The notes beneath the pieces were generated by a model. It ran no database searches and was not told the DNA's origin. It saw only the letters and a list, made by a program, of their open reading frames with translations. Of a stretch of 64,000 nucleotides of DNA, positions 26,091 through 37,058 are shown piece by piece; the first letter of the stretch is position 1; every line of letters starts with the position of its first letter. The position numbers and the translations under genes were made by a program. Origin of the DNA: Bacteroidota bacterium. GTDB lineage: Bacteria; Bacteroidota; Bacteroidia; Bacteroidales; UBA1715. The DNA lies in NCBI GenBank assembly GCA_009786075.1, contig WQTX01000004.1, positions 1-64,000 on the forward strand. The letters are read 5' to 3'.

Positions 26091-26333
26091 TTAGAGAGCA
26101 TATTCACGAGTGTTGGCAACATCTTGCGCTAAATCTGTTGCAGGGTAATTAAATAAAGAAACATTATAGCTGCCCAATAATTCGGTAAAGGCTCGTTTCG
26201 ATAAATTGGCTGTTTTGGCAGCTTGCCCAAGCGACAACTTGCCTTTTTCATACAGCGAACTTGCCAATATCATATACAGTTGCATTGCATCAAGTTCCGA
26301 AGTTTCTGGAACTTTTATGTTTATCATTTTCAT
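26091..26333 (-). CDS. UPF0175 family protein (antitoxin-like)
   Basis: KGKLSLGQAAKTANLSKRAFTELLGSYNVSLFNYPATDLAQDV. Confidence 0.85.
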   Translation of the reverse strand: MKMINIKVPETSELDAMQLYMILASSLYEKGKLSLGQAAKTANLSKRAFTELLGSYNVSLFNYPATDLAQDVANTREYAL

Positions 26334-26388
26334 AGGTTAATGATTAGTAGTTTTAGTAAGTAAACGAGAAAGGTTGTTTTTTTGAACA

Positions 26389-26787
26389 TTAAATAATCGT
26401 ACGAATTAAAAATTTAAGAATTAAACTGTAAGCCAAAAGAACTAATACGATTTTAACACAAAAAAACACCCACGTTACAATATTTAATGCAGGGGAATGT
26501 TTAAATTCTTTATCTTGTTTCCATCGTTTTCGCTTAATTTCTTTTTCCTTGCATCGAAAGATTATCGCCCAAACAATTGTTTTATAAGCATATTGAAGAA
26601 TATCGCAAGTTAGAGAAACCACCAAAAAAATTGCTGGAAGAATTAGTTCCTTCGGTATAATAGTTTGTGTATCTGTTTTAGTAAAAATCCAAATTAAAGC
26701 GAATCCCGCCAATGCGATATTTCTACTTATATCACTTAATTTACCCGAAGCCTTTTCATAAACTGATTTATAACCATCAATTTTCAT
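26389..26787 (-). CDS. Small multi-TM membrane protein of unknown function
   Basis: YKSVYEKASGKLSDISRNIALAGFALIWIF and three further hydrophobic stretches; immediately downstream of a 49-aa Gly-rich ORF. Confidence 0.65.
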   Translation of the reverse strand: MKIDGYKSVYEKASGKLSDISRNIALAGFALIWIFTKTDTQTIIPKELILPAIFLVVSLTCDILQYAYKTIVWAIIFRCKEKEIKRKRWKQDKEFKHSPALNIVTWVFFCVKIVLVLLAYSLILKFLIRTII

Positions 26788-29225: not shown

Positions 29226-29315
29226 AATTCAAGTGTGTAAAATAATAAGTTGCTAAGGTACAATAATTTTTTATTTTTATCAAAGTATTGTAATAACATT
29301 TTTTGTTGGTATTTT

Positions 29316-30416
29316 CTATTCATTGTTTATAGAAACAAGCCAATCTTGAAAAATTTTCTTAAATTCAAATCCATCTGTGTATGGCTTATAAAGGTATTTT
29401 ACCAAATCAAAAGGCATTTCATTTAACGAAAAATGCTTGAGAATTAAGCATCTTTTCCCCTGATTGTGCATTACTCCCAATTCATAAGTAACATTTGGAT
29501 TATAGTTTGCACCTTCTTCGGGCTCGTCAAATAATGCAATACCAAACTTACAACAGTAACATACTGCAATTGGATTGGAGACACTATCTTTTGTTATGTT
29601 CCATTCTGGCGCATCTGCACGAACACAATTATATCCACATCTTGCTAATTCTTCTTTGATAAAGTCTGAAAATTTTTCATTATTATCTCTAAACTTCATC
29701 ATAAGGAAAAAATTCTTTTCATACGGATATTTTTTAAGTTGTTTCTGCATAGTTTTTTTGTGCGTATCCAAATTGTGCAGTTTAAAATATTGTGTAGGCG
29801 ATACATATAATCTGTCTTCTCTTTCGTCTGTTTTGGTGTATTTTTCTATTAACATTTTGATTTTTCTATGCAAATCAGTAACATTAGAGCGATTTATAAT
29901 CACATTTCTGTAAATGTCGTTCTCTAAATATTCTTCAAAAACAGTTTCCGAACGGTCAATCCTTTCTTTAATCATATCGTCATCGTATCCATCTGCCTTC
30001 AAGCGTTTTTCAATAAGTCCCATATCTGTGTAAATATAAATAGGAACTACGAGAACAATGTCCGCATATAACGAGCATATAGTCCGTATGAGGTCTTGAT
30101 TTCGGACAATTACGAATGTACATTCGTATTTATCTATTGCTTTGTCAAGTTCCGATTTGAAAAAACCGTATCTATGTTTTTCTTTTCCATACTCGTACTG
30201 AAACAAATGGTCATTTTTGTCATCTTCTTTGAGTTTAAATTCTGTTTCAGACACAAATATTAAATCTGATTTTTTTGCCTCTTCAAAACGTCTTTTTTTA
30301 CGAGTTGTAAATTTATCAACTTTTGTTGCTGTATATCTGTGTTTATTTGCAACATAGTTTACTAAATCCGACTTTCCTGCACCAGCAGCACCATCTACTA
30401 AAAATAAAACTTTCAT
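29316..30416 (-). CDS. Fusion: guanylate-kinase-like P-loop domain plus TIR/nucleoside-deoxyribosyltransferase-like domain
   Basis: N-term VDGAAGAGKSDLV, TTRKKRRFEE; C-term FFLMMKFRDNNEKFSDFIKEELARCGYNCVRAD...NYNPNVTYELGVMHNQGKRCLILK. Confidence 0.75.
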   Translation of the reverse strand: MKVLFLVDGAAGAGKSDLVNYVANKHRYTATKVDKFTTRKKRRFEEAKKSDLIFVSETEFKLKEDDKNDHLFQYEYGKEKHRYGFFKSELDKAIDKYECTFVIVRNQDLIRTICSLYADIVLVVPIYIYTDMGLIEKRLKADGYDDDMIKERIDRSETVFEEYLENDIYRNVIINRSNVTDLHRKIKMLIEKYTKTDEREDRLYVSPTQYFKLHNLDTHKKTMQKQLKKYPYEKNFFLMMKFRDNNEKFSDFIKEELARCGYNCVRADAPEWNITKDSVSNPIAVCYCCKFGIALFDEPEEGANYNPNVTYELGVMHNQGKRCLILKHFSLNEMPFDLVKYLYKPYTDGFEFKKIFQDWLVSINNE

Positions 30417-30623
30417 ATTAGAATATTTTTTATGTTAATTTTTCAACTTTTCGACTACGCCGCTCGCCATTTGCCGATAATGCTCAAATATACATCACTG
30501 CGTTTTTTTACAATAAATCTTACCGTTAATCAAATTATTCCTTTGCAACAAAAAAATAATCCCTATTTTTGTCAATAAATTTACAACTTATTCACGAATT
30601 ACAAAACAAAAACCTATTTTATT

Positions 30624-34856: not shown

Positions 34857-35774
34857 TTATTTTTGTCCATTATTATCTTTCCAAAGTGGCTCATTCTGCC
34901 AATTATTGAAAAATCCCATTTTGTAAATCGGAATATCCGGATTATTCTTGAATAACGTAAGCAGTTTATTTTTGATTTCGTTGTTCGGATTTATGGCGTT
35001 GCAAAGGTAAATCATTGTAGAAATTACCACAAAAGGCTTTTTCTCTTGTACGGGTGTTACGCCAAACTGTAACCATTGATTTCGTGTTTTTTTCGGTAAA
35101 ACGGGGCGTTTCAAAACATCGCACCCAAACACTCGTGAGTGATGGGCAACTACATTGCGCAAGTAGGAAATGGCTGCAAACCAACTTGATAAATCATTTA
35201 TTGAATTTAGTCCAAATTCGTGAGTGATACGAGATTTTTGCGGTATTTCGGGTTTCAAGTTGCTGTATATTTTTGAAAGTGTGCCGAATGTTGCCACTTC
35301 AAAAATTATCCAAGCATCGGGATTTGAGTTCGGGTGTTTTTTGCGAAATTCTTTCACAAAATTCTCGTTATTTCTTGCAAATTCATTTTGCAAATCTGCC
35401 AAATAATTTTGGTGTTTGATTTTATCTACTACCAAATTATCGTTTAAATACCAAAGTCCGCCGTAAGCCTGCGACAAATGATAAATCAATTTGGTACGCA
35501 ATGCAATTTCGATAAATTCTATTGCTTTGAACAGAATAAGTCGCAACTCGCTATCAAAATCATAACGAGCAATAGCATCTTCAAAATAGGAATTGGGGGC
35601 GAAAATGTGATTTTTAGGGTCGGTTTGCATATCCCACCAATAACTTTTCAGACGAAAATAACTGATATGTCCCAAATAGAAAGCCGCCTTTTGTTCGTCT
35701 TTCATTAACATTCCCCGCGTTTTAAGCAGGGCGATTTGTTCCACGATTGTTTTTGATATTTTATTTGTAGTCAT
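34857..35774 (-). CDS. Abi family protein (Abi_2; AbiD/AbiF-like)
   Basis: [65 protein letters not shown]. Start revised to MTTNKIS (35774). Confidence 0.92.
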
Positions 35775-35868
35775 AAAAAAAATCAACCCGCCGACAGTTC
35801 TTATGGGTTGCACGACGGGTGTTGTTATCTTTAACAGGGCGAAGCCCATTTTGTTATCAATTCTTCCG
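35775..35868 (-). ncRNA. Structured RNA immediately upstream of the Abi gene (abiF-type ncRNA candidate)
   Basis: GGGCTTCGCCC hairpin, H-type pseudoknot CCCGUCG:CGGCGGG with CAAC:GUUG, then U8 abutting the abi ATG. Confidence 0.78.
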
Positions 35869-36317: not shown

Positions 36318-37058
36318 TTATTTTTCTTTTTCAATTCTCTTTGTATATTCATCATATAGAAATTCTATTTTTTTGTGCCTTATTTCATCTTCAATTAATT
36401 TTCGTATTATTAACTCATCTATTTTATCTTGTTTTTGTGTATTTGAGTTGTTTAAATCATTAATATTCAGATTACTAAAGTATAAAACCATAAATAACAA
36501 TAAAACAAAGAAAATAATTCCAATGAATACTCTATTTAGTTTTACTTTTGAAAGGAGAATATCGAATTGATTTGCATTATTTGTTTGTGTTTGTTGTATT
36601 AAAAAATCTTTGTGGTTATTGGTATCTTGCACTTTTTGTTGTGTCACAGAAAACTCGCCATCTACATTTTTCAAAGACCGATAAAAAAGTCGTTCAATGT
36701 CCTCTCCAAAATAGTCAATTGAACTTCTGATTGAACCATAATTTGTAATTACTCCAAAAACTAACACCGAAAATGAAATGACCAATGAACCTCTGTTTTC
36801 TGAATAATCTGTCAAGCACGCTTTTACGTTTCCCAAAAAAGAGAAATGCTTTTGAAAACGGTCATTTATTACGTCATAAATTATGTTATCATTCCATTCG
36901 TATTCTTTTTGTATCTTCTCGAATTTTTTGTCGTATTTTAATAAAGAATGTTTTAACATGTCTTTTATCTTACTAAAATGATATTCCTTATGTTCAATTG
37001 AAAAGGAATACTTGAATGTTAACGGTTTTGAAATGTAAATTGAATTTGTATTATTCAT
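36318..37058 (-). CDS. Hypothetical membrane protein
   Basis: Full-length ORF with C-terminal TM VFIGIIFFVLLLFMVLYFS and charged tail. Confidence 0.65.
   Translation of the reverse strand: MNNTNSIYISKPLTFKYSFSIEHKEYHFSKIKDMLKHSLLKYDKKFEKIQKEYEWNDNIIYDVINDRFQKHFSFLGNVKACLTDYSENRGSLVISFSVLVFGVITNYGSIRSSIDYFGEDIERLFYRSLKNVDGEFSVTQQKVQDTNNHKDFLIQQTQTNNANQFDILLSKVKLNRVFIGIIFFVLLLFMVLYFSNLNINDLNNSNTQKQDKIDELIIRKLIEDEIRHKKIEFLYDEYTKRIEKEK

Follow-up and report, generated by a model that had tools for sequence, protein, structure and literature searches.

The GMK-TIR gene and its genomic setting

The window, that is, the whole stretch of 64,000 nucleotides analyzed here from a Bacteroidota genome, carries between recQ and kdsD a gene in which a guanylate-kinase-like P-loop domain is joined to a TIR/NDT-like domain (table 1). 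The motifs quoted in an earlier note on this DNA (GAAGAGKSD, TTRKKRRFEE, and YNPNVTYELG) were all found in a single intact reading frame. This gene, which we call GMK-TIR, is not a product of chance, since its full-length homologs share 41-71% identity with the window protein and differences accumulate in excess at third codon positions. Compared with the gene of the 71% identical Lachnospiraceae protein (L021), there are 322 nucleotide differences, distributed as 79/54/189 over codon positions 1/2/3. The corresponding LWL85 estimates were a dN of about 0.18 and a dS of 1.17 (about 1.2), and the window protein is therefore under purifying selection. A promoter scan performed no better than on shuffled DNA.

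Table 1. Coordinates of the GMK-TIR gene, its domains, and its key residues in the window
Feature	Position	Strand	Details
Stretch between recQ and kdsD with inserted gene	29226..30623	.	GC about 0.30-0.33
GMK-TIR gene	29316..30416	(-)	366 aa; ATG at 30416, stop at 29316; ORF, relatives, purifying selection
Guanylate-kinase-like P-loop domain	29835..30410	(-)	aa about 3-194; profiles, AlphaFold2, Foldseek
Walker A loop GAAGAGKS	30369..30392	(-)	aa 9-16; G9, G12, G14, K15 invariant 10/10
K35-[FY]-[TS]-T-R39-x-x-R42	30291..30314	(-)	acceptor-phosphate arginines retained; Lys35 in place of Gmk guanine-binding Ser
I103-V-R105	30102..30110	(-)	Gmk DxD (Walker B) aspartate site, substituted in 10/10 proteins
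TIR/NDT-like domain	29319..29777	(-)	aa about 214-366; profiles, AlphaFold2, Foldseek
Asn281	29574..29576	(-)	invariant 19/19; at or adjoining the catalytic Asp of NDT/DNPH1
N308-V-T-Y-E312 active-site motif	29481..29495	(-)	Asn308 and catalytic-type Glu312 invariant, 19/19

The proposal, first made from the sequence, that GMK-TIR lies between recQ and kdsD as a solitary accessory gene is borne out by the empty site present in three genomes of the same family (L065, L066, and L067), in which these two genes are only 156-197 bp apart, against 1398 bp in the window. The insert has a GC content of about 0.30-0.33, compared with 0.42-0.47 for the neighboring genes. In a genome of the same genus (G013), recQ adjoins ruvX and def, and the GMK-TIR copy is absent. 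Considering the empty site, the low GC, the 71% identity to a Lachnospiraceae protein, and the patchy presence described below, the window gene was acquired by horizontal transfer.

On the other side of recQ, between it and a HAD-like gene, we found a UPF0175 gene and a gene for a 132-aa membrane protein (26091-26787, minus strand). In five related genomes, no relative of either was found adjoining recQ, which in the window therefore has accessory genes to its left and right.

The guanylate-kinase-like half

The guanylate-kinase fold proposed for the N-terminus was recovered by profiles, AlphaFold2, and Foldseek. The window protein matches the NCBIfam model guanyl_kin at E 9.9e-12, below its curated cut-off (44.8 of 160.45 bits), and it also falls below the cut-off of the Pfam guanylate kinase model (22.2 of 25.2 bits). 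The same region matches the phage guanylate kinases of PHROG 1815 at E 6e-19, and a profile built from ten full-length sequences reached PDB entries of guanylate kinase (Gmk) at E 2.5e-11. Moreover, the AlphaFold2 model of this domain (pLDDT 85.9) retrieved Gmk structures with Foldseek (E 2.9e-10; target TM-scores between about 0.6 and 0.77).

Ten full-length proteins share G9, G12, G14, K15, T38, R39, R42, Y83, G84, R138, and R152. Thus, in common with Gmk (PF00625/TIGR03263), the domain keeps the fold, the P-loop, Arg39 and Arg42, the lid arginines, and Tyr83-Gly84, which aligns with the Tyr-Gly of Gmk. Guanine is recognized in yeast Gmk by Ser35, Glu70, and Ser81, and the roles given here to Gmk residues, those of the DxD motif included, are those of the yeast enzyme. 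At the aligned positions the two families differ: the column of the guanine-binding Ser is occupied by K35 in 10/10 proteins, that of the guanine-binding Glu corresponds to the variable residue 73, and the Ser/Thr that follows Tyr-Gly is replaced by an invariant F85. The two aspartates of DxD are likewise replaced in all ten, by Ile103 and Arg105, and Gmk lacks the additional C-terminal TIR-like domain of the window protein.

Such a residue pattern sets the kinase half apart from ordinary guanylate kinases. The earlier note had regarded it as a nucleotide kinase; the P-loop and the phosphate-binding arginines are retained, but the residues that read guanine and both aspartates of DxD have been lost, which makes nucleotide kinase activity doubtful. 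The domain would fit better as a sensor of nucleotides, or as a kinase for another acceptor.

The TIR-like half

The C-terminal domain of the window protein has no Pfam match of its own. Among the 19 members of its family, 8 match the CAP12-PCTIR TIR model (best E 3.4e-5, the best-scoring Pfam match among members) and 11 match the nucleoside deoxyribosyltransferase model (best E 1.8e-3). The one member scanned in full with the curated TIR model, L017, stayed below the cut-off (22.3 of 24.7 bits). The AlphaFold2 model of the domain (pLDDT 87.3) had its best Foldseek match in TIR-STING (E 3.3e-5), followed by the CMP N-glycosidase BcmB (1.2e-4), deoxyribosyltransferases, DNPH1 (6.7e-4), and a Bacillus cereus TIR domain (1.1e-3), and a profile of the wider family reached, weakly, the NDT of Trypanosoma brucei and DNPH1. 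The TIR/deoxyribosyltransferase-like fold that had been suspected in this half is therefore confirmed by family profiles, AlphaFold2, and Foldseek, and the proposal of two such folds fused in one protein holds.

Ten residues are invariant in the 19 TIR-like proteins: F237, N281, C289, G292, I293, N308, V309, E312, D337, and W359. They include the Glu of the YELG motif (E312, 19/19), which had been singled out as the likely catalytic residue. In DNPH1, catalysis depends on the triad Tyr24/Asp80/Glu104, and Ser98 binds the phosphate (PMC10603095). Only the Glu of this triad has a clear counterpart in the TIR-like family. The strand 1 Tyr of DNPH1-type sites is absent from all 19 members, and none of them has Asp at 281 or 282 (N281 and P282 in the window protein), the possible positions of DNPH1 Asp80, around which the alignment register is uncertain by one residue. 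We had considered Asn281 as a direct substitute for Asp80, a proposal weakened by a profile alignment that shifts the Asp one column later; for this reason, we claim only that neither 281 nor 282 is Asp. Six residues ahead of Glu312, at the position of DNPH1 Ser98, the family has N306 or S306.

Nicotinamide departs from NAD+ without the need of a general acid, and for this reason a site retaining only the Glu would be better suited to NADase activity than to the hydrolysis of dNMPs, with no proof implied. On the other hand, Foldseek ranked the N-glycosidases (BcmB, NDT, and DNPH1) almost level with TIR-STING, and NAD+ is therefore no more than a candidate substrate.

These matches also bear on a different function, nucleotide-pool policing, in which the C-terminal domain would act in the manner of BcmB or DNPH1, as an N-glycosidase of (d)NMPs, and destroy a non-canonical or phage-modified nucleotide monophosphate. 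The kinase-like domain would select or phosphorylate the same monophosphate, and the NUDIX protein encoded beside several relatives would produce it from the triphosphate. The close structural matches to BcmB, DNPH1, and NDT, the weak reach of the wider profile to NDT and DNPH1, and the N306/S306 at the phosphate-binding position are in line with such a role. A single nucleotide could serve the kinase, the NUDIX protein, and the N-glycosidase, and N-glycosidase-dUTPase fusions are known from the phage side (DmtZ-DutZ; PMC12884076). We nevertheless consider pool policing, the main rival of the effector reading given below, less likely than the latter, as the Tyr and the catalytic Asp are missing from all members, the DxD aspartates of Gmk are gone, and TIR domains are the top match in both structure and Pfam searches.

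Relatives and distribution

A scan with the C-terminal profile, which covered 85,462 species genomes, revealed 15 loci, nine of which (L021-L026, L028, L029, and L031) encode full-length two-domain proteins of 364-373 aa; at the partly masked (N) locus L027, only the C-terminus was used. The nine records are titled Lachnospiraceae, Eubacterium, Clostridia, Chlorobiota, Planctomycetota, Sedimentisphaerales, Thorarchaeota, and Parasutterella. Since several of them are contigs of draft MAGs, individual taxon labels may be wrong. With the window protein these make ten full-length members, and an eleventh, a divergent protein of the same architecture, comes from a genome of the same phylum (L004/L069) and has a different TIR-like half. 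The two-domain architecture is thus conserved across several phyla, in ten or more full-length proteins.

Within this broad range, presence is patchy. The fusion occurs in only 1 of 14 genomes of the window's family, which is the window's own, and the C-terminal family, at E below 1e-40, in 3 of 398 genomes of the phylum; among 397 genomes of the family to which the L022 genome belongs, one has it. The GMK-TIR fusion is old, conserved, and horizontally mobile. Many whole-genome matches to the N-terminus, including L002, L007, L008, L010, and L013-L016, were set aside as housekeeping-type Gmk proteins devoid of a TIR-like half.

Viral contigs, queried with the single sequence and with the C-terminal and full-length alignments, yielded no confirmed relative of the fusion, and the only match in phage records was a Lactococcus phage protein, guanylate-kinase-like, which aligns with the N-terminus. 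In Klebsiella, Citrobacter, Salmonella, and, in one case, Escherichia coli, small cryptic plasmids carry relatives of the TIR-like domain with 37-41% identity, annotated as "hypothetical protein," in which the N-terminus belongs to no recognized family (L017, 1067-1972; L020, 1648-2586; L053, 128-1066). In the smallest of these plasmids, the TIR-like gene is the only one listed besides a replication gene and an HTH gene, and these relatives would be convenient for laboratory work.

Partner genes

In 7 of the 11 members, the fusion gene adjoins a gene whose product, about 430-480 aa long, ends in a NUDIX domain (the two that were scanned match PF00293 at E about 1e-9), in which the R-E-x-x-E-E residues are invariant (7/7). 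At five of these loci (L022, L028, L029, L031, and L069), the NUDIX gene is followed by one that encodes two P-loop domains in tandem (about 450-500 aa), which in L031 is cut off by the contig end. The L023 locus is rearranged, with two single-kinase genes in place of the tandem gene, and L026 has the NUDIX partner. The gene upstream of the L026 copy was left uncounted as a kinase, its P-loop having been seen by eye only, with zero Pfam hits. At L069, a membrane-anchored protein without recognized family is encoded between the GMK-TIR and NUDIX genes (1620-2549). Additionally, in L003 and L030 the TIR-like domain is fused directly to a NUDIX domain, and a second NUDIX gene is present; in L003/L070 (1-1870), these are followed by a classical-TIR-looking gene.

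Homology between the N-terminus of the window protein and the first half of the tandem protein was shown by hhalign profile comparison (probability 97, E 7.7e-11), and the second half of the latter matches NCBIfam guanyl_kin in L028. Domain 1 has K39 at the Ser position, where K-[YF]-x-x-R recurs with little change, and domain 2 has an invariant Lys, K306, at the position of the guanine-binding Ser. An invariant Lys in place of this Ser is thus common to all three kinase-like domains. At the DxD position, domain 1 retains D120 and domain 2 has N380. Such a pattern suggests that domain 1 is possibly an active kinase and that the other two domains may only bind a shared, non-guanine ligand.

No partner adjoins the fusion gene in the window, L021, L024, or L025. 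The tandem kinase was not found in the L021 and L025 genomes, in searches with the same profile that finds the L022 copy at E 2e-203; the weak match in L021 was the fusion gene itself. We conclude that stand-alone forms exist. The window's genome, as searched, holds no relative of either the NUDIX partner or the tandem kinase, and neither do the plasmid and phage records. The description of GMK-TIR as a single-gene system thus holds for the window's genome but fails for the 7 of 11 relatives in which it clusters with a NUDIX gene.

The absence of both partners from the window and from its genome as searched could also mean that this copy is the decaying remnant of a three-gene system. We regard decay as very improbable, because the frame is intact with all invariant residues in place, dN/dS against L021 is low, and further stand-alone copies occur in genomes likewise without the tandem kinase.

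The operon could be understood in yet another way, with the TIR-like domain making a second messenger, the kinase-like domains phosphorylating it, the NUDIX protein erasing it, and a separate effector killing the cell. TIR domains of Thoeris do produce ADP-ribose-derived signals (PMC12948488), the acidic D120 is retained in domain 1 of the tandem kinase alone, and the L069 operon includes the membrane-protein gene mentioned above. Nevertheless, no conserved separate effector was seen, and stand-alone forms occur in the window, L021, L024, and L025, so that we regard messenger handling as distinctly improbable.

Defense context and novelty

Several relatives have defense-type neighbors, such as an McrB-like AAA gene with McrC (L029), an FRG gene that is the PADLOC candidate PDC-S15 (L025), a ResIII-HNH protein (L024), a CAP12 TIR gene (L027), and a TCAD2 gene (L028), in addition to a weakly matched dGTPase-like HD gene (L021). 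With no control set for comparison, and with many of the contigs coming from draft MAGs, these neighborhoods are suggestive only. In the window, no known defense gene or partner is directly adjacent, the nearest being AbiD. This AbiD/Abi_2 gene (34857-35849, minus strand; PADLOC E 2.4e-69, Pfam 9.1e-53) lies about 4.4 kb from the GMK-TIR gene. A 246-aa protein with a likely transmembrane stretch, recognized by eye, is encoded at 36318-37058 (minus strand) and had no Pfam, PADLOC, or NCBIfam match.

Taken together, the defense-type neighborhoods and the horizontal spread make an anti-phage role of the GMK-TIR protein plausible. A non-immune function in nucleotide metabolism (salvage or house-cleaning), merely carried on mobile DNA, would agree with the origin of every domain in nucleotide-metabolism superfamilies and with the housekeeping context of the window copy, next to recQ. 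The very rare and patchy distribution, the defense-type neighbors of several loci, and the CAP12-like TIR similarity argue against it, and we give such an accessory role a low probability.

The window GMK-TIR protein matched 0 PADLOC families; the partners matched PADLOC models only at the level of P-loop or NUDIX domains, and no model in PADLOC, NCBIfam, or Pfam covers the fusion or the operon. A search of the literature, with most subscription papers outside its scope, returned no description of either. These results suggest that GMK-TIR may be new, as a TIR-like effector whose sensor is of a novel type and whose partners are novel as well.

A candidate nucleotide-responsive effector

Our preferred reading, to which we give a probability of roughly 0.45, is that the window gene encodes a nucleotide-responsive TIR-like effector, the stand-alone form of an undescribed candidate defense system. 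We infer that in the uninfected cell the kinase-like domain keeps the TIR-like domain inactive. A non-guanine nucleotide that appears or changes during phage infection would be bound, or phosphorylated, by the kinase-like domain, and its binding would reorganize or oligomerize the protein, releasing or ordering the TIR-like domain. Glu312 could then cleave the N-glycosidic bond of NAD+, and the infected cell would stop growing or die, what would limit the spread of the phage. Where present, the NUDIX and tandem-kinase proteins might make, tune, or remove the ligand.

A broader version of this proposal, which we consider rather doubtful, would place a whole immune system around one non-guanine nucleotide ligand. 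The three kinase-like domains, with their shared Lys-rebuilt pocket, would make or sense it, the NUDIX protein would remove or create it, and the window gene would be the minimal one-gene form.

TIR-like effectors are usually under the control of STING, NLR-type, HTH, or second-messenger modules. Control exerted instead by a guanylate-kinase-like domain, together with NUDIX and double-kinase partners, would suggest that the nucleotide pool itself is surveyed as a signal of infection. In its one-gene form, the system is of a size that suits direct biochemistry.

Comparison with known systems

The TIR domains of CAP12/Pycsar (PF10137) and TIR-STING provide the best fold match for the C-terminal half and share with it the NV..E(L/F)G motif and its catalytic-type Glu, besides the weak Pfam matches in 8/19 members. 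The window domain differs in lacking a Pfam match and in having a kinase-like regulator rather than STING or a cyclic-nucleotide-sensing partner. With NDT, DNPH1, and BcmB (PF05014), the similarity extends to the fold class, the Glu of YELG, and the N/S at DNPH1 Ser98, whereas the active-site Tyr and the general-acid Asp are absent in every member of the GMK-TIR family.

A P-loop kinase has also been predicted as a sensor of modified nucleotides in the case of DndF (PMC10853773), which resembles the N-terminal half in its kinase fold, intact Walker A, and altered Walker B. DndF, however, has a large helical lid and different partners, and it belongs to a DNA restriction complex.

In Kongming (KomABC), nucleotide kinases and dITP control NAD+ depletion, and the monophosphate kinase is encoded by the phage (reviewed in PMC12948488). 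The likeness is one of theme only, namely the control of an effector that depletes NAD+ by nucleotide kinases together with a non-canonical nucleotide, and the phage origin of the monophosphate kinase sets Kongming apart. Swarozyc, a DUF4062 TIR-like NADase, was reported to depend on its active-site Glu and to be triggered through an auxiliary domain (PMC13174449). It shares with GMK-TIR a TIR/NDT-like domain with a conserved Glu, a variable auxiliary domain, a patchy distribution, and defense neighborhoods. The two belong to different families; the Swarozyc auxiliary is a portal-binding HTH/winged domain and not a P-loop kinase, and DUF4062 is not among the Pfam matches of the window protein or the 19 members. 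Both Swarozyc and Kongming are best regarded as functional parallels of GMK-TIR, neither of them implying a family assignment.
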